Shown: positions 576 to 19,055, numbered from the stretch's first letter. The stretch is 21,434 nucleotides of DNA from a bacterium (GCA_040755755.1 JBFLZW010000065.1:1-21434), one strand, 5' to 3'. Made by a program: numbers and translations. Notes: generated by a model not told the origin, from the letters alone.

Positions 576-3500
576 ATGGCAAAAAATAGCAAGATTTCGC
601 AATTGATACTGACTCTGTTCTTTCTCTCCGGATTTTGTGGCCTGCTGTATGAGATTACCTGGTCCCGGTTGATCGGCCTCACCCTGGGCAATTCCACGGA
701 AGCAATCACGGCAACCGTGGCCGCTTTTATGGCTGGCATGGCCATTGGCGGATATGCCGGCGGGAAGGTGGCTGACCGCCGGATCAATTCTCTCTGGCTC
801 TACGGGATACTGGAGGGGCTGGCGGGGTTGTATGCCCTGGCGCTTCCCTTTCTGCTTCGGTTGGCCAGGCCGCTGCTGTCATCATTATATCAGAATGCCC
901 AGGCTGGCCAGAGCACCATGATTCTGGCCAGGTTCGCTGTCTGCTGCGCTGTCCTGCTTGTCCCGGCTGCGCTCTTTGGGGCCATGCTTCCGCTGCTCAG
1001 CAGGTTTTTGATCCGCCAGCCCGATCAATTCGGCAACCTGATAGGAAAGCTTTACGGGCTGAATCTCTTCGGTGCCGCGCTGGGAGCCCTGGTCAGCGGC
1101 CTTTGGCTGATTCCGCATCTGGGGGTCAGCAAGACGATTTACCTGGCTGCCCTGATTGAATTTCTCATCTGCGGATGGGTGCTGATCCTGAGCGGCAAAG
1201 AAGGCCATGATGCCGTGACATCGGCATCCGCACCCGCACAGACTGATGGCATCGATCTCCCCTTCCGGGATTCCTCTCCGCTGTCCTCCCCGCTGATTCT
1301 CCTGGCTATGGCCCTTTCCGGTGCCTCGGCCCTGGTCTATGAGATTACCTGGACGCGGGCTATCATTATGATTATCGGCTCTACAGTTTATGCTTTCAGC
1401 CTGATGCTGACCGCGGTCATTGCCGGGCTGGCTCTGGGGAGCATGTGTGCGGCCAGGCTCATTGACCGGAGAAAGGATCTTGTCCTGATTTTTGGCCTGC
1501 TTGAAATCGGAGTCGGCGGGGCAACGTTCGGCCTGGCACCCTTCTTCGAAAAGCTGACCCTGGTTGTGATCCCGATGTTCAACCTTTTCGGCAACAACTT
1601 TGCCGCCCTGCAGGCCATAGAATTGAGCGGTCTGTTTTTCCTGATGCTTCTTCCATCCCTGCTGCTGGGGATGATTTTTCCCCTGATGTCCACAATGTAT
1701 GTAAGGGGCACGGACCGTCCGGGGGGCGGTGTCGGTGCCACATTGATGGCCAATAGCCTGGGGGCCGTTGCAGGAACCGTGGCCTCCGGCCTGTTCCTGA
1801 TTCCGGCCATTGGCATTCAGAAAACCATGCTGGCGGCCAGCATGGTCAACGTTTTCCTCGGATCATCGGCCCTGCTGTTTTCCCCCTCCCTGTCCGGGAT
1901 TAAAAAGGCAGCGGCCTTTCCGCTGGCTTTTGGCTGCGGCCTGCTCTTTTTTATTACCCAGCCGGAATGGAATAAAGCCCTGATTTCGGGGGCACCCTAT
2001 GTCTATGGACGGGTCTATGCCGGTCTCAGCCGCCAGGGGTCTGGCCAGAGCGTGAAGGAAATCGTCCTGAACCAGGCAGACCTCCTCTTTTACCAGGAGG
2101 ATGCCCAGACTACGGTTTCGGTGAAAAAGGACAAGGGAGAGCAACTGTTCCTGCAATTGAATGGCAAAACCGATGCTTCTTCCCGTGAGGACAACTGTAC
2201 CCAGCGCCTTCTGGCCCATATTCCCCTGCTGCTTCATCCGGACCCTCAGCAGGTAATGGTGCTGGGCCTTGGCAGCGGAGTAACTTTGGGTGCGGCTGAA
2301 AAATATTCGACGGTCAAGCACCTGGATTGCATCGAGATTTCACCTGCCGTGATCAGGGCGGCTGCCTGCTTCAATGAGGTGAATGGGCGAAGCCTCGATG
2401 ATCCCCGGCTTCGGATTATCGTCGGCGATGGCCGGGAGCACCTTGCCCTGACCGATCAAAAGTATGATGTGATCATTTCCCAGCCGTGCAGCCCCTGGAT
2501 TGCCGGGATGTCCGGCCTTCTGACCCGCGAATTTTTCCAGCTCTGCCGGGAGCGGCTCAACGGGACTGGCCTGTGCTGCATCTGGCTCCAGACCTGCAAC
2601 CTGGACATGGCCAGTTCGCAAAGCGTGGTCAAAGCCTTTGGGGAGGTTTTCCCCTCCCTGTCCATCTGGGAGGCACGACCGGGCATCGATTACCTTCTCA
2701 TTGGCGGCACAGGTGAAATCAAACTTGACTACCAACTGGTGCAGCGGAAAATGGCTGGAGAGAGTCTGCACCGGGAATTAAAAACTGTCGGCCTGCCAAG
2801 GCCGGATGACCTGCTGGCCCGCTTTGTCATGAGTAAGGAAGGAGCGGCCCGCTATGTCCAAGGGGCTTGTGCCCATACGGACGACACTACCTGGCTGGAG
2901 TTCCATGCACCCAAACTCCTGTATCAGGAAACCATAAACGAGCACCTGCAAGCCTTGAATGCCCTGCGCGGATTGGATTTTGCATCCCTGCTGACTGCGC
3001 CTGCGGCTGAGGCGGGGAGCCTCAAAGATACCCTTCCGAAAGCCTTCGAAGCTCAAAAGCACTATGCCCTGGCAGAGATGGATCTGCTCAGAAACAAGCA
3101 GGAAGAGGGAGCCAGGAAGATCAAGGAAGCCTACCTCCTCGACCCCGCCGATGCCAGGATCAGGGAGAGATATTATCGCCTCCTGCTGAATGCGGCCTCA
3201 AATTGCAGTCTCAAGGGAATGCACGAGGTGGCTGCCCAGATCCTTCAGTCCGCGATCAGGGTGAATCCGGATGGATTTGAAGGATACCTGAACCTGGGAC
3301 TGGCCTGCTTCCATACCGGACAAGTCCAGGCAGCCATTCAGCAGTTCCGGTTGGCTCTTCTGATTCAGCCGGATAACGAGCAGGCACATCTGAATCTCGG
3401 AGCATGCTATCTTCGGGCCGGCAACCTGGAAGATTCCATTCAGGCAAACCTGACCGCACTCCGGATCAAGCCGGGTCTGGTCAATGCCCACTTTAACCTT

Positions 3501-3740
3501 GGCATAGCCTACATGAGATCAAACCGTGTTGCCCAGGCCATTGCCGAATATCAGGAAGCCATTAAATACCAGCCGAATTACGCTGAAGCCCATCTCAACC
3601 TCGGTATTGCCTATCAGACCTCCGGGGCCTGGGACCAGGCAGCCAGAGAGTACGAAGAATCGCTTCGGCTCAGACCTGACCTGCCCAATGCCAGACAGCT
3701 TCTGGATCAGGTCCAGGCGGTATTGAGGCAGGGGAGTTGA
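576..3740 (+). CDS. Membrane/spermidine-synthase-like/TPR fusion protein
   Basis: This 1054-residue protein has three parts. Residues 1 to about 460 are a polytopic membrane region of the kind called 'fused MFS/spermidine synthase'. It holds an internal duplication: L-x-Y-E-I-T-W-S-R near residue 25 and V-Y-E-I-T-W-T-R near 255, each followed by a glycine-rich helix and a D-R-R loop. Residues about 480-720 form a class I Rossmann domain like spermidine synthase, with L-G-L-G-S-G at about 563, E-I-S-P-A-V at about 587 and G-D-G-R-E-H at about 617. Its loop near 635 reads S-Q-P-C-S-P-W, without the D-x-(S/T)-D-P acidic residues that true aminopropyltransferases use, so polyamine synthesis is doubtful. 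From about 826 there are one or two weak and at least four good TPRs, probably protein-binding. The ATG at 576 follows AAGG/AAAGGG purine runs. The radical SAM gene starts 18 bases after the stop, which suggests one operon. The substrate is unknown. Confidence 0.88.
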   Translation: MAKNSKISQLILTLFFLSGFCGLLYEITWSRLIGLTLGNSTEAITATVAAFMAGMAIGGYAGGKVADRRINSLWLYGILEGLAGLYALALPFLLRLARPLLSSLYQNAQAGQSTMILARFAVCCAVLLVPAALFGAMLPLLSRFLIRQPDQFGNLIGKLYGLNLFGAALGALVSGLWLIPHLGVSKTIYLAALIEFLICGWVLILSGKEGHDAVTSASAPAQTDGIDLPFRDSSPLSSPLILLAMALSGASALVYEITWTRAIIMIIGSTVYAFSLMLTAVIAGLALGSMCAARLIDRRKDLVLIFGLLEIGVGGATFGLAPFFEKLTLVVIPMFNLFGNNFAALQAIELSGLFFLMLLPSLLLGMIFPLMSTMYVRGTDRPGGGVGATLMANSLGAVAGTVASGLFLIPAIGIQKTMLAASMVNVFLGSSALLFSPSLSGIKKAAAFPLAFGCGLLFFITQPEWNKALISGAPYVYGRVYAGLSRQGSGQSVKEIVLNQADLLFYQEDAQTTVSVKKDKGEQLFLQLNGKTDASSREDNCTQRLLAHIPLLLHPDPQQVMVLGLGSGVTLGAAEKYSTVKHLDCIEISPAVIRAAACFNEVNGRSLDDPRLRIIVGDGREHLALTDQKYDVIISQPCSPWIAGMSGLLTREFFQLCRERLNGTGLCCIWLQTCNLDMASSQSVVKAFGEVFPSLSIWEARPGIDYLLIGGTGEIKLDYQLVQRKMAGESLHRELKTVGLPRPDDLLARFVMSKEGAARYVQGACAHTDDTTWLEFHAPKLLYQETINEHLQALNALRGLDFASLLTAPAAEAGSLKDTLPKAFEAQKHYALAEMDLLRNKQEEGARKIKEAYLLDPADARIRERYYRLLLNAASNCSLKGMHEVAAQILQSAIRVNPDGFEGYLNLGLACFHTGQVQAAIQQFRLALLIQPDNEQAHLNLGACYLRAGNLEDSIQANLTALRIKPGLVNAHFNLGIAYMRSNRVAQAIAEYQEAIKYQPNYAEAHLNLGIAYQTSGAWDQAAREYEESLRLRPDLPNARQLLDQVQAVLRQGS

Positions 3741-3758: not shown

Positions 3759-5024
3759 ATGATAATAGAAAATTTCATCACCTGGTTCATGAGGCAGAAA
3801 AATGCCCGCTACCTTCAGTTTCAGGCAGACGGGGGCATTGAGCTTGCGGATAACACCAGGGACAAGAAGTATCTTTTATACATTCATATCCCTTTCTGTG
3901 AACGGCTCTGTCCTTACTGCTCCTTTAACCGCTATCCCTTCGAGGAACCGCTGGCCCGGAGCTACTTTGCGGCCCTGCGGGAGGAGCTGAAAATCTATCG
4001 CCACAAGGGGTATGACTGCACCGGCGTCTATATCGGAGGCGGCACGCCCACGATCATGCTGGATGAGCTTGAAAAGACCCTGGCCCTGGTGCGCTCCCTG
4101 TACTCTGTCCGCGAAGTTTCCGTGGAAACCAATCCCAACCATCTGACGAGGGAAAAGCTGGAGGTGCTGACATCCCTTGGAACAAACCGGCTTTCGGTAG
4201 GGGTCCAGAGCTTCGATGACAAAATCCTTCGCTCCGTGGACCGATACGAAAAGTATGGCAGCGGCCAGGAAATCCGGGAGAAAATCCATCTGGCTAAAGG
4301 GAATTTTGACACCCTGAATGTGGACATGATTTTCAATTTTCCCAATCAGACCATGTCCATGCTGGAGAAGGATCTGGATATCCTGCTCGATCTTCAGGTC
4401 GATCAGATCACCTTTTATCCCCTGATGGTTTCAGCATCCACGCAGAAAGCACTTTCCGAGAAGCTGGGCAGGGTAGATTACCGCAAGGAGCGGGCCTTCT
4501 ACTTCAAAATTCTCGAAAAACTGACCGGTCAGTTTCAGCCTGCCTCGGCCTGGTGTTTTTCCCGGACCGGGGGTATGATCGATGAATACATTGTCGATTA
4601 CGATGAATATGTCGGCGCAGGCAGCGGCGCTTTCGGCTACCTGAACGGCTGCATCTATGCCAATACCTTTGATCCTGGGGAGTATATCAGAGAGCTCAGG
4701 CAGGGGAGGCTGCCCCTTGGCTTTAAAAAAGCCTTTCCCATCAAAGAGCAGATGCGCTATGATTTTCTCATGAAGCTGTTTGGCCGGTGCCTGGACATCG
4801 AAGGGCTGAAAGCCAAATTCAGGGGGAGCTTCTCCCGTTACCTCTGGCTGGAAATCCTTTTCTTCAAACTCGCTGGCGGCATCCGGTTTGATGCCGGGCA
4901 AATCCTCCTGACTCCCAAGGGCCAGTATTACTGGGTAATCATGATGAGGGAGTTTTTTATCGGAGTCAATAACTTCCGCGATTGCTGCCGCAGCAGAATC
5001 CTGTCCGTGAATTCAAATAATTAA
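3759..5024 (+). CDS. Radical SAM protein, coproporphyrinogen III oxidase (HemN/HemW) family
   Basis: This 421-residue protein has the radical SAM cluster motif Cys47-x3-Cys51-x2-Cys54 within Y-I-H-I-P-F-C, the usual HemN/HemW context. It is followed by G-G-G-T-P at 93-97, E-T-N-P-N-H, the R-L-S-V-G-V-Q-S-F-D strand and D-M-I-F-N-F-P-N-Q-T. These support a 4Fe-4S, S-adenosylmethionine-dependent enzyme. The C-terminal third looks like a HemN_C-type helical domain ending in M-M-R-E-F-F-I-G-V-N-N. It is not clearly classical HemN (oxygen-independent coproporphyrinogen dehydrogenase) or HemW (heme chaperone), as the D-L-I-Y-G-L-P-G-Q-T motif of HemW is altered, so no symbol is given. AGGAG lies just before the ATG at 3759. 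The 18-base gap to the preceding gene implies co-transcription and perhaps a joint role. No terminator is obvious after the stop. Confidence 0.87.
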   Translation: MIIENFITWFMRQKNARYLQFQADGGIELADNTRDKKYLLYIHIPFCERLCPYCSFNRYPFEEPLARSYFAALREELKIYRHKGYDCTGVYIGGGTPTIMLDELEKTLALVRSLYSVREVSVETNPNHLTREKLEVLTSLGTNRLSVGVQSFDDKILRSVDRYEKYGSGQEIREKIHLAKGNFDTLNVDMIFNFPNQTMSMLEKDLDILLDLQVDQITFYPLMVSASTQKALSEKLGRVDYRKERAFYFKILEKLTGQFQPASAWCFSRTGGMIDEYIVDYDEYVGAGSGAFGYLNGCIYANTFDPGEYIRELRQGRLPLGFKKAFPIKEQMRYDFLMKLFGRCLDIEGLKAKFRGSFSRYLWLEILFFKLAGGIRFDAGQILLTPKGQYYWVIMMREFFIGVNNFRDCCRSRILSVNSNN

Positions 5025-5871: not shown

Positions 5872-8800
5872 ATGAATAACACAAATACCAAACAATATCA
5901 TATGGGAATCAATATGGGCCATGATCGCTCGGTGGCTATCGTCAAAGATGGTGAGCTTGTCGTTGCCATCGAGCAGGAGCGGCTTGATCGTAACAAACAC
6001 AGCGTAGGTTATATGCTGCAATCTCCGGTAACGTCCCAGATTCAGGTTCCTGTAGAGGCTTGTCGCTACTGCCTTGAAACCTGCGAAATAAAAATAGAAA
6101 ATCTGGCAACAATTACTCCGAACATGCCCGGTCAGGACATTGCTCCTGATATTATTCGCAACACGTTTCTCAAGTATGTTGCCGATAAAGTGCTCAGGAT
6201 TCCGAGTCACCATCTGGCGCATGCCTATTCCGCTTTCTGGCCATCCGGTTTCGATGAGGCGCTGATCCTTGTGGTCGATGCAACCGGCAGCACCGACGCC
6301 AGCCAGCGGACCGAGTCCTATACCCTCTATGAGGGCCGGGGCACCACGATCACTCCATTGCACGCTGAAAAAGTCGCTGCACACCTGGCCGGGCTTTCAA
6401 CACTCGGTTTTATTTACGAATACGTTACCCGCAAAGCCGGTTTCGTAACTTCCGTTGGCCCGGCTTTACGCATTGCAGAAGCTGGCAAGCTGATGGGGCT
6501 GGCACCCTACGGCGGCGAGCAGATTAACTGGCACCGCTGGATTCGCGCGGAAAAGGACTCATATAGTCTGGGTATTTCCGCCTATGACATTTTCCTGGAA
6601 GTGGCTGCGCTTGAAAAGCGCTATGACCGGGGCGAGGGCAAGGCGTATTTCCGGCCATACCTGGTTGACCTTGCCTACAAGGTCCAGAAGGAACTCGAAG
6701 AGGTCCTGCTTCACCTTGTCGATCTGGCCATGAAGCAGACCGGCCTTCGCAAGCTCTGCATAGCCGGTGGTGTAGGTCTGAACTCGGTAGCCAATTACCA
6801 ACTGCTGCATCATCTCAAGCTTGACGATATTTTTATTTTTCCTGCTGCTGGAGACAGCGGCATTGCGGCAGGCAGCGCTCTATGGGCGTATCATACCATC
6901 GAGGGCGGAGACAAACGCCCGCAAATGCGCAGAGCGACTCTTGGCCGGGGCTATACTGCCGATGAGGTATCTGCCGCCGTCAGGAAATTTGAATCCTCGA
7001 TCATGGCCGAGGAACTGACGCCCTCTGAAATGATTGCCCGCAGTGCCGAAGCCCTGAAGAACGGCCACATTGTTGCCCGTTTTGAAGGAGGCTCCGAATA
7101 CGGGCCCCGTGCTCTGGGGCACCGGTCCATTATGGTCGATCCCACGTTCTCGAAAATGAAAGACATTCTCAACGCCCGTGTCAAGCACAGGGAGGCATTC
7201 AGGCCATTTGCTCCGGTTATTCCGCTCGAAAACATCTCGGAAGTCTTCGAGCAGAAGGTGGCCTCACCTTTCATGCTGGTAGTTCCCATGATCAAGAAGG
7301 AGCTTCAGAAGCAGATTCCTGCGGTAACTCACCAGGATGGCACCGGGCGTGTGCAAACGGTCACGGAGGAAGACAACTCCTATTTCTACCAGCTCTGTCA
7401 TAAACTGGTCGAGTTGCGAAAGGGGCCGCCGGTACTGCTCAATACCAGCTTCAATGTGGCAGGTCAGCCAATTGTGGAGACACCGAAAGAGGCGATCGAA
7501 ACCTTTCTCTCGACAGACATCGACTATCTGTCGCTCGAAAACTACTGGATTTCCAAGCGGGATGTTCCGGTATTGTCCTATGAGGCAAACGCAAAGAGAG
7601 TGGCAGAAAGCGCGATGCCCAAGGGACTTCCTCCGGAACAGCCCGGTGTGACAGACCTCATGGAAAAGCTCGACCGGGCTTTATTCTTTGGGGATACCAC
7701 AGAGTGCCCCTGGTCGGATGAGGAACTGCGGAACCTGTCCTCACTTGGTGGCCTGTATAAGGAAACCAGTGTACTGTTCCCGGAGACCCCGTTCTCCGGC
7801 CCCTTGCGGACACAACTGTCGGAAAATGTAGTCCTGCTGCTCGATCCCCTCGGCAAATCCAAACTGGTTGATCTGAGTCAACACCGTAAGCCATCATCAT
7901 ACACCTTCGATGAGGTTAAAATCCTGTTAGCGGTGAGCAATGCCTCGCAGGAGGAGTGGGAAACACTGCGCCTCAGGCTTCGTCTTACGACTCTCGAATT
8001 TGACCGGCGTGTTCAGTGGGCCATCGATCAATTGGGTGCCTTTGGCATCAAGCCAAAACATGGACACCTGCAGCAGCCTGGTGCGGATTCAAAACTGCCA
8101 GGAGAGTGCAATCAAACATTTGCGCCTTTTGAGGATGAAAACTTCTCTGCACGGCAGGCACTTTTGAAACTCAATGAGTGCCTGAGCCGGGCCGGATACA
8201 CCAAAGAGAACATCTGCTCCCTGCTCGGTATCAACTCGCTTCAGGAGATCGAACCAACGCGCCTTTGCTATTACGACCAGTTCCTTCTGCCCGGAGAATC
8301 CCGGCCTGAAGATTCCGAGTCCGATAATTCCGGATCAAAACCGGCAGATCCCGGGCTGGTGCTCCTTGCTGACCTGATCCGGCTTTTCCAGCTTCGTGCA
8401 GCGCTGCCGGAGGAAAGACTTTGCGAAATCTTCACCGCTGAGCTGTTCAAAATCCTCGTCTCTCTGGGCATGTTGATCCGGCGGGGAGAAGAGTACGCTT
8501 CCCGGGTTGACCTGTTCTGTGCCGAGGGCCTGTATCTGGCCACTGACCACCGCTTCATGATCCTGCCGGAAGATCAGATCGACGAGAGCCCGGTGATGTA
8601 TCTTGGTCTGGACAGTATGGGGCTGGTCTACACTGCCCCGCAGTGTGATGCGGATCAGCTCCTTGATCTGTGCTGCGGCAGTGGGGTCCAGGGCCTCGTG
8701 GCCAGCCGCTATGCCCGTCAGGTTACCTGCGTGGACATTAATCCGCGCAGCATCCGCTTCTCGCGCTTTAACGCCCAACTCAACGGCATCCGGAATGTCC

Positions 8801-9741
8801 GTTTCTGCAAGGGAAACCTGTACGAGCCGGTCCGGGGAAGGAAGTTCGACACTATTCTGGCCAATCCTCCCTTCGTACCAAGTCCCAAGAGTGAATACCG
8901 CTTCCGGGACGGCGGCGGCAGGGGTGAGGACATTTTAAGCCGTATCATCAAAGAGAGTGCCCATCACCTGGCAAAAGACGGTAAACTCTTCATCGTGAGC
9001 GATCTGGTCGATGTGGAGAGCTATCAATCCAAGCTCGACCGCTGGTGGCAAGGCGGAGCGGCCCACAAACTGGTTCTTCAGACAGCCAATCGCAATGATA
9101 TTCTTTTCTCGGTTCCCCACAGCCATGCTCCTTTTGGCCAGAGCTTTGAAGAATATAACGCCGAACTGGCCCAATGGCTCAGGAATTTCCATAAAGAGAA
9201 GATGACGGCGGTTAATTTCGGTTATATCCTGATCTGCCGTCTGCCGGAAGGCAAGACTGATTCGTACTACACACGGACTATTCATAATCCGACATCCCCG
9301 ATCCATCAGCAGGTGAAAAAATATTTCGACCAGAGGAAACTCCTTGAAAATGGCCACAGCAGCAATAAATTTATCCTTCTCTCTCATGACCTTTACTTCA
9401 GGGTGGAATCCAACCATAGGGTCGCCTCTGAAACTATCGAGCTGTTTTCACCGCACAATCCATATTTTACCACCTACAAGGTAAGTGATCAGGTCTATCG
9501 GATGCTGAGAGATATCGATGCTCTTCAACCCCGGTTGGGTGACTTTTTGACTCCAGCGAACCGTGAGTGGCTGTATGACTTTATTTATAAAGGCATTCTT
9601 TACCTGAGCGATGAACGGATAAAAGACAGGGGAAGTCAGCAGCAGAAAGCCGCTGTCGACTCATTCGGCATGTGGATACAGGAGCAGCAAACCAAGACAA
9701 CGCCAACCTGTCTTTCCGCATATCTTTGCCACCGGTCGTAA
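5872..9741 (+). CDS. O-carbamoyltransferase fused to an NPPF-type methyltransferase
   Basis: This is a 1289-residue fusion. Residues 1 to about 565 are a complete NodU/CmcH/TobZ-type carbamoyltransferase. It has G-I-N-M-G-H-D at the N terminus, H113-H-L-A-H117 and D136 at places matching the metal ligands of TobZ, A-G-D328-S-G, then a C-terminal domain with Y-G-P-R-A-L-G-H-R-S (410-419), F-R-P-F-A-P and L-L-N-T-S-F-N. It should move carbamoyl from carbamoyl phosphate to a hydroxyl through a carbamoyl-adenylate. Residues about 570-750 are unassigned. About 755-900 resembles the helical/winged-helix domain in front of some actinobacterial methyltransferases. The SAM-binding domain has D932-L-C-C-G-S-G938, D955 and N998-P-P-F1001, typical of enzymes that methylate planar nitrogens. 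About 1080-1289 is unassigned. GAGGAG lies 6 bases before the ATG. carA follows after 37 bases and would supply the carbamoyl phosphate. Confidence 0.9.
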   Translation: MNNTNTKQYHMGINMGHDRSVAIVKDGELVVAIEQERLDRNKHSVGYMLQSPVTSQIQVPVEACRYCLETCEIKIENLATITPNMPGQDIAPDIIRNTFLKYVADKVLRIPSHHLAHAYSAFWPSGFDEALILVVDATGSTDASQRTESYTLYEGRGTTITPLHAEKVAAHLAGLSTLGFIYEYVTRKAGFVTSVGPALRIAEAGKLMGLAPYGGEQINWHRWIRAEKDSYSLGISAYDIFLEVAALEKRYDRGEGKAYFRPYLVDLAYKVQKELEEVLLHLVDLAMKQTGLRKLCIAGGVGLNSVANYQLLHHLKLDDIFIFPAAGDSGIAAGSALWAYHTIEGGDKRPQMRRATLGRGYTADEVSAAVRKFESSIMAEELTPSEMIARSAEALKNGHIVARFEGGSEYGPRALGHRSIMVDPTFSKMKDILNARVKHREAFRPFAPVIPLENISEVFEQKVASPFMLVVPMIKKELQKQIPAVTHQDGTGRVQTVTEEDNSYFYQLCHKLVELRKGPPVLLNTSFNVAGQPIVETPKEAIETFLSTDIDYLSLENYWISKRDVPVLSYEANAKRVAESAMPKGLPPEQPGVTDLMEKLDRALFFGDTTECPWSDEELRNLSSLGGLYKETSVLFPETPFSGPLRTQLSENVVLLLDPLGKSKLVDLSQHRKPSSYTFDEVKILLAVSNASQEEWETLRLRLRLTTLEFDRRVQWAIDQLGAFGIKPKHGHLQQPGADSKLPGECNQTFAPFEDENFSARQALLKLNECLSRAGYTKENICSLLGINSLQEIEPTRLCYYDQFLLPGESRPEDSESDNSGSKPADPGLVLLADLIRLFQLRAALPEERLCEIFTAELFKILVSLGMLIRRGEEYASRVDLFCAEGLYLATDHRFMILPEDQIDESPVMYLGLDSMGLVYTAPQCDADQLLDLCCGSGVQGLVASRYARQVTCVDINPRSIRFSRFNAQLNGIRNVRFCKGNLYEPVRGRKFDTILANPPFVPSPKSEYRFRDGGGRGEDILSRIIKESAHHLAKDGKLFIVSDLVDVESYQSKLDRWWQGGAAHKLVLQTANRNDILFSVPHSHAPFGQSFEEYNAELAQWLRNFHKEKMTAVNFGYILICRLPEGKTDSYYTRTIHNPTSPIHQQVKKYFDQRKLLENGHSSNKFILLSHDLYFRVESNHRVASETIELFSPHNPYFTTYKVSDQVYRMLRDIDALQPRLGDFLTPANREWLYDFIYKGILYLSDERIKDRGSQQQKAAVDSFGMWIQEQQTKTTPTCLSAYLCHRS

Positions 9742-9778: not shown

Positions 9779-10855
9779 ATGGGAAGTAGAAAAGTCAATG
9801 CCCACCTGGAATTGGAGGATGGTTCCGTATTTTCCGGATATTCCTTCGGGGCGCAAAAACCGGTGGCTGGAGAGGTTGTCTTTAACACCAGCATGGTTGG
9901 TTACCCCGAAAGTCTGACCGATCCATCCTATCACGGCCAGATTCTGGTTCTCACCTATCCTTTGATCGGCAATTACGGCGTACCGGAAAAGAGGATTGTC
10001 GATCAACTGGATGCGTGGTTTGAGTCTGACAAGGTGCATATCCGGGGGTTGATCATCTCGGAATATTCCTGTGATTTCAGCCATTGGAGCGCCGGCAAAA
10101 GCCTGAGTGACTGGCTGAAGGAGCACGATGTGCCAGGCATCTCCAATATCGATACCCGCATGCTCACCAAACGACTGCGCGAAGAGGGTACCATGCTGGG
10201 CAGGATCAGGTATTTCAATGAGGAGCTCAGCTTCGATGACCCTAACAAAGAGAACCTGGTGGAGCAGGTGAGCATAAAAAAGCCCGTTGAATACGGCAAT
10301 GGCAATGGAAGCAAAATTGTTGTCCTGGTTGATTGCGGGTGCAAGGAAAATATCGTCCGGAGCTTGCTGGCCTTACACCTGCACGTGCGGCGAGTGCCGT
10401 GGGATTATGATTTTACTCAGGAGCGGTGTGACGGGGTCCTCATTTCCAATGGTCCCGGGGATCCCAAGATCTGCCGGGAAACCATCAAAAACGTGCGTAC
10501 GGCCATGGAACGGCAGATGCCGGTTTTTGGCATCTGTCTGGGCAACCAGATCCTCGCTCTGGCCGCAGGGGCTGATACCTATAAGCTCAAATTCGGGCAT
10601 CGCAGTCAGAACCAGCCATGTATCGAGGTCGGCACCCGGCGATGTTACATCACCTCCCAGAATCATGGCTTTGCCGTCGATGGCCGGACCCTGCCCGAAG
10701 GGTGGAAGCCCTGGTTCGTGAATGCCAATGACAACACCAACGAAGGCATTCGCCATGTATCGAAGCCCTTCATGAGCGTGCAGTTCCATCCCGAAGCCGC
10801 ACCGGGACCGGTGGATACCCATATTTTATTCGAAGACTTTCTGAGGATGCTGTAA
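9779..10855 (+). CDS. carA: Carbamoyl-phosphate synthase small (glutaminase) subunit
   Basis: This 358-residue subunit hydrolyses glutamine and passes ammonia to CarB. The N-terminal CarA domain is clear (L-E-D-G-S-V-F-S-G, then F-N-T-S-M-V-G-Y-P-E-S-L-T-D-P-S-Y). The class I glutamine amidotransferase domain keeps its triad: Cys253 in G-I-C-L-G-N-Q, His337 and Glu339 in F-H-P-E. The His normally after C-L-G is Asn here. Several strings look like the glutaminase part of animal CAD rather than E. coli CarA: N-Q-P-C, T-S-Q-N-H-G-F-A-V, F-V-N-A-N-D-N-T-N-E-G-I and S-V-Q-F-H-P-E. AGGAGG at 9769-9774 is 4 bases before the ATG. The gene is 37 bases after the carbamoyltransferase fusion and 18 bases before carB, so one transcript is very likely. 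It may serve arginine and pyrimidine synthesis, the carbamoyltransferase, or both. Confidence 0.95.
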   Translation: MGSRKVNAHLELEDGSVFSGYSFGAQKPVAGEVVFNTSMVGYPESLTDPSYHGQILVLTYPLIGNYGVPEKRIVDQLDAWFESDKVHIRGLIISEYSCDFSHWSAGKSLSDWLKEHDVPGISNIDTRMLTKRLREEGTMLGRIRYFNEELSFDDPNKENLVEQVSIKKPVEYGNGNGSKIVVLVDCGCKENIVRSLLALHLHVRRVPWDYDFTQERCDGVLISNGPGDPKICRETIKNVRTAMERQMPVFGICLGNQILALAAGADTYKLKFGHRSQNQPCIEVGTRRCYITSQNHGFAVDGRTLPEGWKPWFVNANDNTNEGIRHVSKPFMSVQFHPEAAPGPVDTHILFEDFLRML

Positions 10856-10873: not shown

Positions 10874-13800
10874 ATGACCATGATGACTAAGCCCCAAAAG
10901 ATACTGATTCTCGGCAGCTCGGCGCTCAAGATCGGCGAAGCCGGGGAATTCGATTATTCCGGCAGTCAGGCAATCAAGGCATTGAAAGAAGAAGGCATCA
11001 CCATTATTCTTGTCAATCCCAATATTGCCACCATTCAAACCTCGGAGCATCTTGCCGATCAGGTTTATTTCCTTCCGGTAACCCCGTATTTTGTCGAGCA
11101 GGTGATCAAAAAAGAAAAACCGGATGGCATATTGCTGGGTTTTGGCGGACAAACGGCTCTGAACTGCGGTGTAGCCCTGGAGAAAGAAGGGATCCTTCGG
11201 CGCTACGGCGTCAATGTGCTGGGTACGCCTGTCGAGGCAATCGTCAATACCGAGGACCGGGAGCTGTTCGTGGCCAAATTGCGCCAGATCGATGTCAAGG
11301 TGCCCCGCAGCTTTGCGGTGACGACTATCAACGATGCCGTCCGGATGGCTGAGGAAATCGGCTATCCGGTCATGATCCGGATTGCCTATGCTCTGGGCGG
11401 CCTGGGCTCCGGGATCTGCCGGGATGAAGAACAGGTCAGGGACAGGGCACAGAAGGCCTTTTCCTATACCCGGCAGATTCTGATCGAGGAGTATCTTTTA
11501 GGGTGGAAAGAAATTGAATACGAGATAGTCCGGGATCAATTCGATAACTGCCTGTCCGTATGCAATATGGAAAATTTCGATCCCATGGGTATCCATACGG
11601 GTGAGAGCATCGTCATTGCACCGAGTCAGACCCTGACCAACCGGGAATATCATTCATTGCGCGAAATCGCCATTCGTACGGTCCGGCATCTTGGCATCAT
11701 CGGTGAATGCAATATCCAGTATGCACTCAATCCCCGCTGTGAGGACTACCGGGTGATCGAAATCAATGCCAGACTCTCCCGCAGCTCGGCCCTGGCCTCG
11801 AAAGCGACCGGATATCCTCTGGCTGCGGTGGCGGCCAAGCTTGCCCTCGGATACAGCCTGGTTGACCTGAAAAATTCAGTCACGGCCGTTACCAGGGCGA
11901 GCTTTGAACCTGCCCTCGATTATGTGGTGGTCAAGATTCCCCGCTGGGACCTGAAAAAGTTCCGGCTCGTCTCCAATAAGCTTGGCTCCGGGATGAAGTC
12001 CGTCGGCGAGGTCATGGCTATTGGCCGCAAGTTCGAGGAGGCGCTCCAGAAGGGCCTGCGCATGCTTGAAATCGGGGCCAGGGGACTGGTTTTGAATAAA
12101 GAGATGGAATTCAGCGACCTCGAAGAGGAACTGGCCGAGCCGACCGATTTGCGGATTTTCGCCATTCCCGAAGCCATGAAACGAGGATTCTCCATCGAGA
12201 GAATCCATGAATTAAGCCACATAGACAACTGGTTCTTATACAAAATCAAAAATATCGTTGAAATGGAACAAGACCTGAAGAGCGTGGGTGAGCAGCGTAT
12301 CCCGAAAGATCTGCTGTACAGGGCCAAGCAGTATGGTTTTTCGGATGCTCAGATCGGCTGCGCCGTGAAGCTTGGTGAAGACGAAATCCGAAACCTGCGC
12401 AAGAATTATGGATTAACGCCCCATGTCAAGCAGATCGACACCCTGGCGGCAGAGTATCCGGCCCAGACAAATTATCTCTATCTCACCTACAACGGTTCCG
12501 AGGACGATGTCAGCTTCACTGAGCGGAATTCAGTCATGGTTCTTGGCAGCGGTGCATACCGGATCGGCAGTTCGGTGGAATTCGACTGGTGCTGCGTCAA
12601 TTCCGTCAAGACCCTGAAGCAACTGAATTATCATACCATTATGGTCAATTATAACCCTGAGACCGTAAGCACCGATTATGATGAATGCGACCGGCTGTAT
12701 TTCGATGAATTGACCTTTGAGACCGTGGTCGATATCTATGAAAAACAAAGACCCCTTGGGGTCATTATTTCCATGGGCGGCCAGATCCCCAATAATCTTG
12801 CACTCAGGCTTCACCAGGCAGGCGTCCGGGTGCTGGGTACCAGTGCTTTGAGTATCGATGCGGCGGAAGACCGCCACAAGTTCTCGAAGCTTTTGGACGA
12901 GCTGAAGATCGATCAGCCGCCGTGGAAGGAGCTGACCTCTCTGGCCGAGGCCAAATCCTTTGCCCGGTCCGTGGGTTATCCCGTCCTGGTCCGGCCTTCC
13001 TATGTGTTGAGCGGTGCAGCCATGAGCGTGGCTTCCACTGATCAGGAACTGGAAAAATTCCTCAATAAAGCTTCGTGCATCTCATCCGATCATCCGGTGG
13101 TCATTACCAAGTTTATCGAAAATGCAAAGGAAATCGAAATCGACGCCGTTGCCCGGGAAGGGGAGTTGATTGTTTTTGCCATTTCCGAACATGTGGAGAA
13201 TGCCGGGGTTCATTCCGGAGATGCCACACTCGTGCTTCCACCGCAGCGTACCTTTCTGGAGACCACGAGGCGCATCAAGAAGATCGCCCGGCAGCTCGCC
13301 AAGGCCCTGATGATCAACGGCCCCTTCAATATCCAGTTTATCGCCAGGGATAACGAAGTCAAAGTGATCGAGTGCAACCTCCGGGCATCCCGCAGTTTTC
13401 CCTTTGTTTCGAAGATTTTCAAGATTAATTTCATCGATCTGGCCACCCGGATTATTATGGGCTGCCAGGTGCCAAAAGTCGATCGATCGGTTTTCGATCT
13501 CGAATATGTGGGCGTCAAGGCACCCCAGTTTTCTTTCACCCGGCTCAGCGGTGCCGATCCGACAACGGGAGTGGAAATGGCTTCTACCGGCGAAGTGGCC
13601 TGCATCGGTGACGATTTCGAAGAAGCGTTTTTAAAAGCCATGATTTCAGTAGGCTATCAGCCTTTTGTCAAGAGCATCCTGCTCTCGACCGGGCCGATTG
13701 AAAGCAAGACAGCCTTTCTTGAAAGTGCCAGAAAACTGCACGAGCTTGGCATCCAGTTCTACGCCACACCAGGGACAACCCGATTTATGCACAACAATGG

Positions 13801-14071
13801 AATCCCGGTAACAGAGCTGCACTGGCCATTATCCGGGGAAAAACCCAATATCCTGGATTATCTGACCGGCGGAAAGATCGACCTGGTCATCAACATCCCG
13901 AAAAACTTCCAGGAAGATGAGTTGACCAATGACTATATCATTCGCCGGAAAGCCGTCGATTTTGCAATTCCGCTTTTTACCAATATCCAGTTGGCGCGCC
14001 GGTTCGCGGATGCCGTCTGCAAGAAATCGGTGAAAGACCTGCAAATCAAGAGCTGGAGCGAATATGAATGA
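10874..14071 (+). CDS. carB: Carbamoyl-phosphate synthase large subunit, CAD-like type
   Basis: The 1065-residue length is normal for CarB. The first ATP-grasp half (about 1-400) makes carboxy phosphate and carbamate; it starts I-L-I-L-G-S and has G-E-F-D-Y-S-G-S-Q-A-I-K-A-L-K-E, F-G-G-Q-T-A-L-N-C-G and E-I-N-A-R-L-S-R-S-S-A-L-A-S-K. A linking domain runs about 400-550. The second half (about 552-925) phosphorylates carbamate and begins V-M-V-L-G-S-G-A-Y-R-I-G-S-S-V-E-F-D-W-C. From about 930 an MGS-like allosteric domain has T-G-P-I-E-S-K, Y-A-T-P-G-T-T and N-I-P-K-N with R-R-K-A-V-D-F-A-I-P-L-F-T-N, a form I associate with Bacteroidetes CarB. Many strings match animal CAD from memory, for example V-N-Y-N-P-E-T-V-S-T-D-Y-D and S-E-H-V-E-N-A-G-V-H-S-G-D-A-T-L-V. 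GAGGA at 10860-10864 supports ATG 10874; further ATGs at 10880 and 10883 are less well spaced. No truncation is seen. Confidence 0.95.
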   Translation: MTMMTKPQKILILGSSALKIGEAGEFDYSGSQAIKALKEEGITIILVNPNIATIQTSEHLADQVYFLPVTPYFVEQVIKKEKPDGILLGFGGQTALNCGVALEKEGILRRYGVNVLGTPVEAIVNTEDRELFVAKLRQIDVKVPRSFAVTTINDAVRMAEEIGYPVMIRIAYALGGLGSGICRDEEQVRDRAQKAFSYTRQILIEEYLLGWKEIEYEIVRDQFDNCLSVCNMENFDPMGIHTGESIVIAPSQTLTNREYHSLREIAIRTVRHLGIIGECNIQYALNPRCEDYRVIEINARLSRSSALASKATGYPLAAVAAKLALGYSLVDLKNSVTAVTRASFEPALDYVVVKIPRWDLKKFRLVSNKLGSGMKSVGEVMAIGRKFEEALQKGLRMLEIGARGLVLNKEMEFSDLEEELAEPTDLRIFAIPEAMKRGFSIERIHELSHIDNWFLYKIKNIVEMEQDLKSVGEQRIPKDLLYRAKQYGFSDAQIGCAVKLGEDEIRNLRKNYGLTPHVKQIDTLAAEYPAQTNYLYLTYNGSEDDVSFTERNSVMVLGSGAYRIGSSVEFDWCCVNSVKTLKQLNYHTIMVNYNPETVSTDYDECDRLYFDELTFETVVDIYEKQRPLGVIISMGGQIPNNLALRLHQAGVRVLGTSALSIDAAEDRHKFSKLLDELKIDQPPWKELTSLAEAKSFARSVGYPVLVRPSYVLSGAAMSVASTDQELEKFLNKASCISSDHPVVITKFIENAKEIEIDAVAREGELIVFAISEHVENAGVHSGDATLVLPPQRTFLETTRRIKKIARQLAKALMINGPFNIQFIARDNEVKVIECNLRASRSFPFVSKIFKINFIDLATRIIMGCQVPKVDRSVFDLEYVGVKAPQFSFTRLSGADPTTGVEMASTGEVACIGDDFEEAFLKAMISVGYQPFVKSILLSTGPIESKTAFLESARKLHELGIQFYATPGTTRFMHNNGIPVTELHWPLSGEKPNILDYLTGGKIDLVINIPKNFQEDELTNDYIIRRKAVDFAIPLFTNIQLARRFADAVCKKSVKDLQIKSWSEYE

Positions 14072-14091: not shown

Positions 14092-14539
14092 CCCATCTCC
14101 CGTAATGACCAAAAAGATTACAAGAAGTGGTCAGACATTAAGCATGTTGCTTAATGAAACTTCTCTTCAATCCCGCCTTTCCCGATGTGATAATTAATAA
14201 AACACAATGAAAATCAAAGCATTAGGTATTTTTTACCGTATTACCGTCTTTCAGGCATGAAAAATGCGCATAAAATTTATGAAAAGCAGGTGAGTGGAGT
14301 ATGAAATAAAAAAGTCCCGGTATCCGGCAAAACAGAAAGGAGAGGAGATCAAGAGAGTTATTATAAAAACATGAGCCTGCCCCAAATAACAAATTCACTA
14401 CAGATGATACTTTTGATACCCAAGCCGAATCCATCAGGTCAGGAGTCCTGAGCTCACATCCAAGATTCTCTCAAATCCTCTTGAAAACGTGAGGGCGAGA
14501 GGGAAAATCCGTTGCACTATTCATCTGGAGAGCTATACC
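14072..14539. other. 468-base intergenic region before the porin-like gene
   Basis: No gene was seen. Besides the carB hairpin and the inverted repeat at 14136-14156, the stretch is AT-rich. A possible extended -10 (TGTGATAAT, 14186-14194) and a TAAAAT at 14271-14276 are candidate promoter pieces without good -35 partners. TTACCGTA/TTACCGTC is a small tandem repeat at 14233-14248. I looked for a c-di-GMP or other known riboswitch core in this long leader and did not recognise one. Confidence 0.45.
14136..14156. promoter_or_regulatory. Perfect inverted repeat, possible operator or hairpin
   Basis: CATTAAGCA (14136-14144) and TGCTTAATG (14148-14156) are perfect reverse complements separated by TGT. 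The bases after it are AAACTTCTC, with no T-run, so a terminator on the plus strand is unlikely. The size and symmetry would suit a dimeric regulator site between carB and the porin-like gene. Its role is unproven. Confidence 0.35.
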
Positions 14540-15853
14540 ATGCGTAATCACGTGCTAGCAGGATCAGTTATCTTATTGATGGCCTTAATTCCCAGCCGGT
14601 CTTACGCACAACATGACAATGTTACCCTGTCGCCAGAGAGTATTACCCTCTTACAAGAGCACGTTACAGCTTTGGAAGCCGAGATCGGCAAGTTAAAATC
14701 ACAAATGAAAAAAAATCCTGCCGGAAATCCGAGCCTTGAAAATATCGATCCGGATCTGACTCTGAAACCTTTTTACCATAATAATGGAAGAAATAGAGGC
14801 AGCGGGAACGAAGCGGGTTTTGACCTGATTGCTGATTTAGGATTTAAGGTCGGGATCCAGGATGACTTGAGTGTGTGCTTTCAAAGCAGGTTAAAGTCAC
14901 AAAAGTGCGAATTTTCCAGAAATTATGAATATGAATTCGGCCTGACTAACAGTTATCGGCCAAAAGAAGAGCCGATTTCTCTCAAGCTTGGCTATCTGAG
15001 TTATAACCATACCCTGCTTGGCGATTATAAAATCGGTATCGTGCCAACCATATTTGATATAGATAATTTCTACGATTATCGATACTTATGTATAGGACCC
15101 ATAGATAGTGAGCTGATCCCTTTCAGTGATGTAGGAATTCGATGGGATAAAAATGTAACTGTTAACCCAAATTTATTTATCGGGTTAAATTTATTATTCT
15201 CCAATGGAGAGGGCGATGCTGTGACTAACTCCAATAGTGCGTGCGGAGCAGGTGGCAGCGGTACGATATCTTACTTATTCAACAACAGAGAAGATCTTTT
15301 CAGCATAGGGGTACTGGCCTATACTGGAAAAAAATATTCTACCCCGGTAAAAGAATTATTTGATGTGATCGAACTGCAGAACAACATGGTTTTTAAAAAG
15401 CTGAGACTGTTTCAAGCAGATACGGGTGATCTGGAAATCAAGAACACCTATTCCTGGTATAGAAGAGGATTCAGAGACGAAGACATCGATGCATCCGAGA
15501 TTGCCGAATACGGCTATAGTGAGGCGAGCGAGAATTATCTGGTAAATATGCTTCAGGCAGGTGGTGCCGGCATCATTGATTATCATGCAATAAACATAGA
15601 TATGAAATACACACCTCCTGTGATGAAAAGAAAATTTTCAATAGCTGGCAACTACAGCGAATTGCAGGATAATAAGGAAATACAAGCTCCCTTCAAGAGA
15701 TGGACAGCGGGACTTGAGATCAGGATTCTGGAATCTGAAACCCATACCTTGACCTTCCTGGGTTACTGGGCAAATACCCAGGATGATTTGCCGAAAGATC
15801 CCAGCGACAGGGAATATAGCATTATTACGGGATTACAATTGGTAATGCCATGA
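14540..15853 (+). CDS. Putative outer-membrane porin-like protein
   Basis: From ATG 14540 this is a 437-residue exported protein. Residues 1 to about 23 form a Sec signal peptide: basic start M-R-N-H, a hydrophobic core V-I-L-L-M-A-L-I, and a likely cut after S-Y-A. Residues about 30-55 are predicted coiled coil (L-L-Q-E-H-V-T-A-L-E-A-E-I-G-K-L-K), as in bacterial porins with an N-terminal periplasmic coil. The rest has alternating polar and aromatic strands suited to a beta-barrel, including K-L-G-Y-L-S-Y-N, G-I-V-P-T-I-F-D-I-D and a last segment T-L-T-F-L-G-Y-W-A-N. The frame is open upstream to a GTG at 14489, but ATG 14540 has GGAGAG 7 bases before it and starts the signal peptide. The C terminus is not the usual Phe. 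The gene is visibly more AT-rich than its neighbours. The substrate is unknown. Confidence 0.75.
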   Translation: MRNHVLAGSVILLMALIPSRSYAQHDNVTLSPESITLLQEHVTALEAEIGKLKSQMKKNPAGNPSLENIDPDLTLKPFYHNNGRNRGSGNEAGFDLIADLGFKVGIQDDLSVCFQSRLKSQKCEFSRNYEYEFGLTNSYRPKEEPISLKLGYLSYNHTLLGDYKIGIVPTIFDIDNFYDYRYLCIGPIDSELIPFSDVGIRWDKNVTVNPNLFIGLNLLFSNGEGDAVTNSNSACGAGGSGTISYLFNNREDLFSIGVLAYTGKKYSTPVKELFDVIELQNNMVFKKLRLFQADTGDLEIKNTYSWYRRGFRDEDIDASEIAEYGYSEASENYLVNMLQAGGAGIIDYHAINIDMKYTPPVMKRKFSIAGNYSELQDNKEIQAPFKRWTAGLEIRILESETHTLTFLGYWANTQDDLPKDPSDREYSIITGLQLVMP

Positions 15854-16114: not shown

Positions 16115-16199
16115 TAAATTTATGACCTGGTATTAAAATTATACGATCTCTCGAGCATAGATCATCTTTTGAATATCCATCATGAGGGAATATCAGAAT

Positions 16200-19055
16200 A
16201 TGGGAACGGATAAAAGAAACATCGTGTTTTGGCTCAGTTGTCTGGTTTTTGTTCTTTTTGCTTTTGGCTGTCAGCATCTTACCCCGCAGGTTTCACAATC
16301 CCCGAAGTCACCGCCCGAATGTAACGTGATTGTTATTACTCTTGACACCTTGAGGGCTGATCATCTTGGCTGCTACGGAAACACCAAGATCAAGACCCCT
16401 TACATAGACGCCATAGCTCAAGAGGGAGTGCGGTTTGCCCGGGCCTACACCCCGGTGCCGGTAACTCTGCCTTCCCATACCTCCATCTTTACCGGCCTCT
16501 ATCCTGTCTATCATCAGGTGCGCAACAACGGGACTTTTGAGGCAGGCAGTCAACTGGAGACCCTGGCCGAGGTGCTGAAGAAAAACGGGTTTGCCACCTC
16601 AGCTTTTATCGGTTCCTTTGTCCTGGACAGCCGGTACGGACTGGGTCAGGGGTTCGACTATTATGATGACTATCTGGAAAAGGATTCCAATCAGTCAATC
16701 ATGGTATACAATGAGCGGCCAGCCGCAGAAGTGGTCCAGGCAGCCAATCAGTGGCTGGAGAAGAACTCCGGGAGCCGGTTCTTCATGTGGCTGCATTGCT
16801 TTGATCCTCATGCACCGTATGATCCGCCGCTGCCATTCTGCAAGATTTACCAGAAAAATCTCTACGATGGCGAGATTGCCTATACTGATTATGCGCTGGG
16901 AAGACTGTTTTCCACCTTAAAGGAAAAGAATATTCTTGACCAGACCCTGATCGTAATTACCGCTGATCATGGAGAGGGATTGGGCGAGCATGAGGAAAAA
17001 ACGCATGCGATTTTTATCTATGATACTACACTCCATATTCCCCTGATCATGCGCTATCCCAAGGTCATACCACCGGGTTTGGTCGTTCAGGATACCACCT
17101 CGACCATCGATATCATGCCTACGGTCATGGATATCCTGAATATCCGGACCATGCCCCGGGTTCACGGCTCAAGCCTTCTGGGGCTTATTCAGGGGAAGAA
17201 AGAGGCTCTTCACAAGGAATTTCTCGTCGAGACTTTTTATCCTCTCTATAATCATAACTGGAGCCCATTGGAAGGTCTGATGACAGAAGACTGGAAATAC
17301 ATCAGGGCTCCTCAGTCCGAACTTTACGATCTGAAGAATGACCCCGGAGAGAAAGTTAATCTTTTTGAGCGGAAGCGGGAAGTGGCCAAAAAACTGGACG
17401 CCCGGATGGTGGAGCTGCAAAAGAAAAACTCACCTCCCAAAGATGGCTTTTCCGCTCAGTTTCAAATGGATAAAGATACCAAGGAGCGGCTGAAAAGCCT
17501 TGGCTATGTCTGGACTGTCCCGGTCAATGAGAAGAAGGATCATTATCGTCTGCCCGATCCCAAGGATATGATCGCCACTCTGGACTACCTGAATATGGGT
17601 ACTTTCTACTATACACAGGGAAATTATGACCGGGCTGTCGAGCAGTTTCAACTGATGCTGAAGGCCAATCCCAAGGATGTGTTTACTCACTTTGTTCTGG
17701 GCTACATCTATGACAAGCAGAATCTTCCTGACCAGGCCATTCATGAATTACAGGAGGCCATACGGCTGGATCCCACCTATATCAATGCTTATAACAATCT
17801 GGGAACGGTTTATAATCGCCTCGGAAAGCAGCAGGAAGCGCTTGCGGTGTTTAAAATCGCCAGGGATTTGAACCCTGATTACCTGGAAGTGCACGATAAT
17901 CTCGGAGTAGTTTACTTTGCTCTCAAGGAATATGACAAAGCGCTGGAGTCATTTCAGAGGGCTGCCGAGATTAACCCCAGAGGATATGAACCATATAATA
18001 ATATGGGAAGCGTTTACCTGGCTGTGGGCAAGTATACGGAAGCGGAAAAGATGATCCAAAAAGCGCTCGAAATCAACCCGACATGCCCTGATGCCCTGAA
18101 TAATCTGGGAAGTATTTATATCACTCAAAAGAATTATGAGCAGGCCATTCAAAAATTTCAGGAACTGATCAAACTCGATCCCAATCATGTCGATGCATGG
18201 GTTAATCTGGGCACAGCTTTTCTTGGAGCAGGAAAGTATGAAGAATCCCGGCAGGCACTGGAAAAAGTCATCCATATCAAGCCCGACATTCCCAAGGCCT
18301 ACAATTGCCTGGGAACGCTCTCCATGAAAATGGGCAAGTTCGATCAGGCTATCGAGCAATTTCAAAAATCTCTGAATCTCGATCCCAATTCTTCGGAAAC
18401 CCGGTATAACCTGGGAATCGCCTATTACAATATCGGCCAGATCGGCCAGGCAATAGAGGAGTATAAACGCTCCATCGCTCTTGAACCTTCAAGCCCTTCC
18501 ACCCATGTCAATCTTGGTATTGCTTATTTCCATATGGGAATGCTTGACAAGAGTCAGGCCGAATATCAGGCTGCACTTCGCCTTGAGCCAAATCACCTGG
18601 AAGCCAGGATTAATCTTGGTGTGACCTATTACAATAAGGGAGAATACGACCGGGCTATCGAAGAATATCGAAAGGCTTCGCTCATGAGTCCGGGCAGCAT
18701 TCAGCCGTATGTGAACCTGGGGCTGGCTTATCTGGCCAAGGGACTGACTGATGAGGCTATAACTGAATACCAGAAAGCCCTGAATATCGATCCCAATAGC
18801 CTCGAAGTCCACGTCAATCTGGCCAGCGCATATTTTAACCAGGGGCAATACCAGAGGGCTTTGGCTGAGTACCAGAGTATCACCCAACTCGATCCGAAAA
18901 ACCCGGCTGGCTACTATGGGTTAGGATACAGCTATTTTTATCAGGGCCTTTTTGACCAGGCAATTTCAGCCCTGCGAAATGCGCTTCGCCTGAAGCCGGA
19001 CTACCTGGAAGCCCGCCTTTTGCTGGATAAGGCATTGTCTATAAGGCAGAATTGA
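16200..19055 (+). CDS. Sulfatase-superfamily lipoprotein with about 14 TPRs
   Basis: I place the start at ATG 16200 (951 residues) because GAGGGA at 16184-16189 lies 10 bases before it; ATG 16182 has no such site. The N terminus is basic then hydrophobic and ends L-F-A-F-G-C, a slightly unusual lipobox, so the protein is probably a lipoprotein facing the periplasm. Residues about 40-440 are an alkaline-phosphatase/sulfatase-superfamily domain: I-T-L-D49-T-L-R-A-D-H-L-G-C-Y-G, T89-L-P-S-H-T-S-I-F-T-G, and A-D256-H257-G-E-G-L-G-E-H. The nucleophile position is Thr89, not the Cys or Ser of C/S-x-P-x-R sulfatases. Formylglycine cannot form there, so a phosphohydrolase or phosphotransferase role is as likely as sulfate removal. 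From about 460 there are 14 full TPRs and a partial one, with the N-N-L-G-x-x-Y consensus, for protein binding. The substrate is unknown. Confidence 0.88.
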   Translation: MGTDKRNIVFWLSCLVFVLFAFGCQHLTPQVSQSPKSPPECNVIVITLDTLRADHLGCYGNTKIKTPYIDAIAQEGVRFARAYTPVPVTLPSHTSIFTGLYPVYHQVRNNGTFEAGSQLETLAEVLKKNGFATSAFIGSFVLDSRYGLGQGFDYYDDYLEKDSNQSIMVYNERPAAEVVQAANQWLEKNSGSRFFMWLHCFDPHAPYDPPLPFCKIYQKNLYDGEIAYTDYALGRLFSTLKEKNILDQTLIVITADHGEGLGEHEEKTHAIFIYDTTLHIPLIMRYPKVIPPGLVVQDTTSTIDIMPTVMDILNIRTMPRVHGSSLLGLIQGKKEALHKEFLVETFYPLYNHNWSPLEGLMTEDWKYIRAPQSELYDLKNDPGEKVNLFERKREVAKKLDARMVELQKKNSPPKDGFSAQFQMDKDTKERLKSLGYVWTVPVNEKKDHYRLPDPKDMIATLDYLNMGTFYYTQGNYDRAVEQFQLMLKANPKDVFTHFVLGYIYDKQNLPDQAIHELQEAIRLDPTYINAYNNLGTVYNRLGKQQEALAVFKIARDLNPDYLEVHDNLGVVYFALKEYDKALESFQRAAEINPRGYEPYNNMGSVYLAVGKYTEAEKMIQKALEINPTCPDALNNLGSIYITQKNYEQAIQKFQELIKLDPNHVDAWVNLGTAFLGAGKYEESRQALEKVIHIKPDIPKAYNCLGTLSMKMGKFDQAIEQFQKSLNLDPNSSETRYNLGIAYYNIGQIGQAIEEYKRSIALEPSSPSTHVNLGIAYFHMGMLDKSQAEYQAALRLEPNHLEARINLGVTYYNKGEYDRAIEEYRKASLMSPGSIQPYVNLGLAYLAKGLTDEAITEYQKALNIDPNSLEVHVNLASAYFNQGQYQRALAEYQSITQLDPKNPAGYYGLGYSYFYQGLFDQAISALRNALRLKPDYLEARLLLDKALSIRQN

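Follow-up and report, generated by a model that had tools for sequence, protein, structure and literature searches.

The DNA analysed here (the window) is a 21,434-nucleotide bacterial stretch (GCA_040755755.1, JBFLZW010000065.1:1-21434) that contains a single intact reading frame of 1289 codons with zero internal stops. The encoded protein, hereafter the fusion, combines a carbamoyltransferase half, a middle domain and an S-adenosylmethionine (SAM)-dependent methyltransferase half, followed by a linker and a conserved C-terminal tail. An earlier note on this DNA had proposed the pairing of the two enzymes in one polypeptide, which is confirmed by the single frame and by intact copies with the same domain order in other genomes. 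That note described both enzymatic domains correctly but overlooked the middle region and the C-terminal peptide. The bifunctional assignment is strong, and the fusion very probably has both carbamoyltransferase and N-methyltransferase activity, as judged from its sequence. As a whole, the protein fits none of the described families known or found. A literature search restricted to open papers found no paper describing the fusion, its tail or DUF7059, a family to which the methyltransferase half is related below.

The N-terminal half is assigned to the class III (TobZ/GdmN) carbamoyltransferases by its sequence and active-site residues. It matches the Pfam families Carbam_trans_N (1.3e-33; 117 bits against a cut-off of 24) and Carbam_trans_C (1.3e-62; 211 bits against a cut-off of 27). 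The best stretch of the Carbam_trans_N match begins at residue 100, and the phmmer range begins at residue 11. A residue-by-residue comparison pairs H113, H117, D136 and D328 of the fusion with the GdmN iron ligands H133, H137, D156 and D333, and H17 with the proposed general base H27. The metal ligands and general base are therefore all kept, and the earlier description of an intact NodU/CmcH/TobZ-type carbamoyltransferase is borne out. The nearest solved relatives are 7xb6, the NovN-type structure 9s2t, GdmN and TobZ. The fusion shares with TobZ, GdmN, NovN and NodU the Kae1-like and YrdC-like domains, the iron ligands, the general base and the YGPRALG motif. However, these enzymes stand alone and act on sugars or polyketides, whereas the fusion also has a methyltransferase and a conserved C-terminal peptide.

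The methyltransferase half contains a Pfam MTS match at residues 921–1044 (3.3e-20) that includes the N998-P-P-F motif. Sequence libraries give this half generic MTS/PrmC-like matches only, and the match to DUF7059 (Pfam PF23186; 20.7 bits) lies under the gathering cut-off of 27. Standalone methyltransferase relatives (L126 and L127), which resemble actinobacterial DUF7059 methyltransferases, stop at a point matching residue ~1247. A structure of residues 566–1289 was predicted with AlphaFold (mean predicted local distance difference test score, pLDDT, of 73) and used for a fold search. The closest fold is GenN, the gentamicin N-3'' methyltransferase, with a Z score of 28.7 over 300 residues, and AerE aligns along its entire length with a Z score of 24.9 over 341 residues. 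Members of the GenN/AerE clade score 24.7–28.7, and every other family shown, including PrmC and RNA methyltransferases, scores below 15. The family profile aligns the AerE sequence VYIGPDS with MYiGmDS of the fusion family and thereby pairs AerE Y137 and D141, the residues mutated in the deposited AerE structures, with Y910 and D914. AerE N231 coincides with N998 by position, and Y910, D914 and N998 are all invariant in the homologue alignment. The predicted fold and these residues clearly place the methyltransferase half in the GenN/AerE clade. The earlier assignment of a complete, nitrogen-methylating enzyme is supported, given that GenN methylates an amine, that AerE methylates an Asn side-chain amide and that the residues probed in AerE are conserved. 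In the alignment, GenN, whose substrate is a small aminoglycoside, has Asn-Ser-Pro where the fusion has NPPF.

The NPPF motif, together with Pfam and NCBIfam matches to PrmC/HemK, PrmA and RsmC, could instead indicate a translation-factor, ribosomal or nucleic-acid methyltransferase fused by chance to a carbamoyltransferase. However, the NCBIfam matches all lie far under their family cut-offs (PrmC, 65 versus 199 bits), and the structural scores of such enzymes stay below 15 as against 25–29 for GenN and AerE. A nucleic-acid or ribosomal target, the case that the earlier note had named as contrary to its proposal, is thus disfavoured and has a very low probability.

The ~160 residues of the middle domain, located between the two enzymes, have no counterpart in either parent family or in unfused relatives. 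A topology like that of a recognition element (RRE) for ribosomally synthesised and post-translationally modified peptides (RiPPs) is predicted at residues 653–723. Fusions between RREs and carbamoyltransferases have been described (PMC12710340). A PqqD identity was considered but is not supported by profile comparison; the predicted topology alone fits an RRE. The profile of the middle domain yielded nothing credible against PDB sequences. An alternative reading comes from GdmN, which carries a C-terminal auxiliary dimerisation domain at the corresponding place (PMC9633730); by analogy, the middle domain may have the same role.

Full-length, intact proteins with the same domain order were found in Dendronalium (64% identity), Nostoc T09 (66%), the genome G051 (50%) and further cyanobacteria. 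The fusion is full-length or nearly so in 11 of 388 sampled cyanobacterial genomes, Dendronalium included, and also occurs in G051, which is unrelated. A broad sample of 386 genomes contained no further copies, and a plasmid search returned no record covering 80% of the query, the matches listed being to the carbamoyltransferase part only. In the window's own family, one copy is cut by a contig end (G003) and another is frameshifted (G001). The latter, in a sister genome (metagenome-assembled genome HOT.CON.50; L023 10663–10760), has a frameshift and a stop between the middle domain and the methyltransferase, although both halves are well conserved; either a sequencing error or recent decay would explain it. 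The unusual architecture and this frameshifted relative could suggest that two genes were merged by misassembly. However, 12 further full-length intact copies exist in other genomes, and the 13 full-length copies group by their carbamoyltransferase domains into a single clade with support of 100/100, apart from the compared unfused carbamoyltransferases. An assembly artefact, the other challenge that the earlier note had foreseen, is thereby ruled out for practical purposes, its residual probability being negligible.

The C-terminal tail is the most striking feature that the earlier note had passed over. All 17 copies terminate in (T/S)K(T/S)TPTC[LVI]S[SA]Y[LI], located 0–4 residues from the C-terminus, and the 12-residue peptide TKTTPTCLS(S/A)YL is near-invariant. 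Residues K1275, T1277, P1278, T1279, C1280, S1282 and Y1284 are identical in 17/17 homologues, and each of these positions shows synonymous codon changes. The preceding linker is 36% conserved and varies in length from 19 to 40 residues, with 0/21 residues identical between the window and G051. In 12 of 13 genomes, a degenerate DNA pattern for TKTTPTC has exactly one match, which invariably lies at the fusion gene; the thirteenth genome, G001, has SKTTPTC in its own fusion copy. No separate precursor peptide with the exact motif was found in the 13 genomes, and the tail has no NCBIfam match. The tail is absent from the standalone methyltransferases and unfused carbamoyltransferases compared, the latter mostly ending near residue 563–580. 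A conserved C-terminal peptide is thus joined to the modifying enzyme in all 17 homologues, the arrangement looked for in a cis-acting RiPP. The tail contains Lys, Thr, Ser, Tyr and Cys residues but neither Asn nor Gln. The earlier note had proposed that the fusion could make an O-carbamate and then N-methylate it on a substrate that it left general; because the C-terminal peptide is conserved, the fusion's own tail is favoured as candidate acceptor over a free small molecule.

By analogy with known peptide-modifying systems, the fusion is tentatively read as a bifunctional enzyme that would modify its own tail. A flexible, near-invariant peptide at the end of an enzyme with two active sites suggests that the tail enters an active site, and a role for it as the substrate of at least one domain is judged somewhat short of an even chance. 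The carbamoyltransferase would use carbamoyl phosphate and ATP to form carbamoyl-AMP and would then transfer the carbamoyl group to a nucleophile, most probably in the flexible C-terminal peptide TKTTPTCLSSYL. Carbamoylation of the invariant Lys would give homocitrulline, and that of Thr, Ser or Tyr would give an O-carbamate. The GenN/AerE-type domain would then N-methylate a primary amide or amine. Because the tail lacks Asn and Gln, an AerE-like methyltransferase would find its natural target amide in the new carbamoyl NH2. The two reactions would yield an N-methylcarbamoylated peptide, with N-methyl-homocitrulline or an N-methylcarbamate as examples of the modified group; the peptide may be released or stay attached. 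Chemical precedent for carbamoylation followed by N-methylation, the order suggested in the earlier note, comes from Asc-Orf2 (PDB 9l4q), which is deposited as a carbamoyl N-methyltransferase. However, Asc-Orf2 is structurally farther from the methyltransferase half (Z score of 13.1), and a search of the open literature found no paper on it. That the product carries an N-methylated carbamoyl group is a rather doubtful proposal.

Several peptide-modifying systems resemble the fusion in part. StdF, in which a NodU-like carbamoyltransferase is joined to a peptidase S8 domain, carbamoylates a Lys that lies in a conserved peptide motif at the C-terminus (PMC13174530). StdF differs from the fusion in having a peptidase in place of the methyltransferase and in acting on a separate precursor peptide, StdA. 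AerE and PoyE are proteusin Asn N-methyltransferases, and the peptide substrate of AerE is bound in extended form (PMC11285071). In contrast to the fusion, AerE and its precursor AerA are separate, and AerE methylates Asn, which the fusion tail does not contain. In the crocagin pathway, a carbamoyltransferase and an N-methyltransferase (CgnI and CgnL) are both used toward one peptide product (PMC10070186), as proposed for the fusion, but they are separate enzymes, and N-methylation follows core cyclisation and release. Crocagin and StdF are the only reported cases of peptide carbamoylation according to PMC13174530. The borosin methyltransferase OphMA, like the fusion, bears a peptide at its C-terminus, in this case its own substrate, which is modified in cis; borosins have no carbamoyltransferase. 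Borosin methyltransferases catalyse backbone alpha-N-methylation and belong to a class different from that of the fusion. A borosin identity was ruled out, as the methyltransferase of the fusion is a class I MTS-type enzyme of the GenN/AerE clade.

A number of observations weigh against self-modification of the tail. The tail is near-invariant across lineages, whereas RiPP cores often diversify, and a binding peptide would fit this conservation equally well. The GenN/AerE clade also methylates small molecules, as GenN illustrates. The tail is disordered in the AlphaFold model (pLDDT of about 31–43), and a model of residues 90–1289 (pLDDT of 54) was too poor to place the tail in either active site. 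A comparison of the middle domain with 30 PqqD sequences by hhalign gave no match (probability under 2%) and did not exceed control regions. No exporter or dedicated protease is conserved beside the fusion gene.

The chief alternative is a small-molecule tailoring enzyme whose acceptor, a sugar or another metabolite, is O-carbamoylated and N-methylated in the manner of TobZ/GdmN and GenN. Here the tail would act as a lid or recognition element on which activity depends, not as a substrate. All of the closest solved carbamoyltransferases are small-molecule enzymes, the best structural match to the methyltransferase half is GenN, and the near-invariance of the tail is as compatible with a structural role as with a substrate. 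Carbamoylation and N-methylation of Nod factors by two enzymes, NodU and NodS, is a classical example of this chemistry. However, the tail sits behind a linker that is unconserved relative to G051, is predicted to be disordered and is missing from unfused relatives, and the fusion has no conserved sugar, polyketide or peptide-synthetase genes as neighbours. The small-molecule reading is therefore regarded as a doubtful but serious possibility, and self-modification of the tail is provisionally retained as the favoured reading.

Table 1. Features of the fusion gene and the adjacent carAB genes in the window
Feature	Coordinates	Strand	Remarks
Fusion gene, 1289 aa: carbamoyltransferase, middle domain, N-methyltransferase, linker, conserved tail	5872..9741	+	
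Residues 1-565, TobZ/GdmN/NodU-type carbamoyltransferase (Kae1-like plus YrdC-like)	5872..7566	+	Fe ligands H113, H117, D136, D328; general base H17; YGPRALG motif
Residues 566-728, middle domain, limited to the fusion family	7567..8055	+	RRE-like topology only (predicted); missing from unfused relatives
Residues 729-1247, GenN/AerE-type SAM N-methyltransferase	8056..9612	+	DUF7059-like N-terminal part, winged-helix-like C-terminal part
Y910 and D914, counterparts of AerE Y137 and D141	8599..8613	+	Invariant in all alignment rows
N998-P-P-F motif, N998 at the position of AerE N231	8863..8874	+	By position in alignment
Residues 1248-1268, hypervariable linker	9613..9675	+	19-40 aa among homologues; 0/21 identical to G051
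Residues 1269-1285, near-invariant tail IxEL-x-TKTTPTC[LVI]S[SA]YL	9676..9726	+	Within 0-4 residues of the C-terminus; candidate substrate or recognition peptide
carA, glutamine-hydrolysing carbamoyl-phosphate synthase small subunit	9779..10855	+	37 bp after fusion; paralogue of second carA, contig C69
carB, carbamoyl-phosphate synthase large subunit	10874..14071	+	Second copy on C69 42-48% identical

The fusion gene is closely followed by carA and carB (the carA–carB gap is 18 bp), and no terminator-like site was called in the fusion–carA gap. The window's carAB genes have paralogues in another carAB copy, located near trp genes on contig C69, so the adjacent carAB could plausibly serve as a private source of carbamoyl phosphate. 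A role for carAB as a conserved partner was considered and rejected, as the linkage is not conserved: the 91%-identical carB of G001 is located elsewhere. Since the linkage is not kept in G001, the idea of a dedicated supply rests on one genome and on the second carAB near the trp genes. In G051, a genome of another class with the most divergent fusion copy, carAB (L142 1–4401; G051:C16) are 59–65% identical to those of the window, as against about 40–49% outside the genus in the other lineages compared. This sequence closeness hints at a shared transfer of the fusion and carAB.

Genes for an isochorismatase-fold protein and a PAS histidine kinase adjoin the fusion in L022, L024, L058, L059 and G051 and lie close to it in L066 and L067. 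The isochorismatase-fold protein has Gly (LIGYQNDYF) in place of the expected catalytic Asp, the position of which we take from nicotinamidases, and keeps the Lys and Cys residues. The two genes form a module of a Gly-variant (LIGY/FQNDYF) isochorismatase-fold protein and a cytosolic PAS histidine kinase (L022 7522–9857, L058 5914–8122, L059 13541–15939 and L108–L123) and often overlap or are adjacent, both with and without the fusion. Among the 388 cyanobacterial genomes, the fusion is present in 11, the isochorismatase-fold orthologue in 21 and both in 8, compared with 0.6 expected (P = 2.6e-9, an optimistic value given that the genomes are related). The recurring neighbourhood makes a signalling role in cyanobacteria possible. 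In a signalling module, the fusion would make or modify a signal, and the tail would dock the enzyme to the neighbouring kinase or isochorismatase-fold protein. However, the tail is conserved equally in genomes that lack the pair, and 13 cyanobacterial genomes have the pair without the fusion. In G000, the tail is present without such an isochorismatase-fold orthologue, and the pair is thus not needed for the tail. The pair-free genomes argue against the pair as the binding partner of the tail, not against a functional link, and a docking role of this kind is considered quite unlikely.

Other genes in the window encode a 1054-residue protein with an MFS-type membrane part, a spermidine-synthase domain and TPR repeats (576–3740); a HemN-like radical SAM protein that scores above the cut-off of NF006385 (coproporphyrinogen III oxidase family protein; 3759–5024); a 454-residue protein with a signal-like N-terminus and zero Pfam or NCBIfam matches, the composition of which suggests an outer-membrane beta barrel (14489–15853); and a sulfatase domain joined to about 14 TPR repeats (16182–19055). 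In several G001 proteins, secretion-signal-like starts are followed by long GLYGGLYGGLYG-type repeats (L141 7452–8255; L035 16286–17281 and 18237–18986).

At its furthest extent, the favoured reading of tail self-modification would define a new class of self-modifying peptide synthase, in which a carbamoyltransferase, an AerE-type N-methyltransferase and their own substrate peptide are combined and the N-methylcarbamoylated product is perhaps sensed by the neighbouring kinase as a signal or regulator; this full version is, on balance, unlikely. If the tail is not a substrate, a near-invariant disordered peptide that is exclusive to the fused form would still call for explanation. If it is, two rare chemistries, peptide carbamoylation and side-chain amide N-methylation, would be joined in one cis-acting protein.

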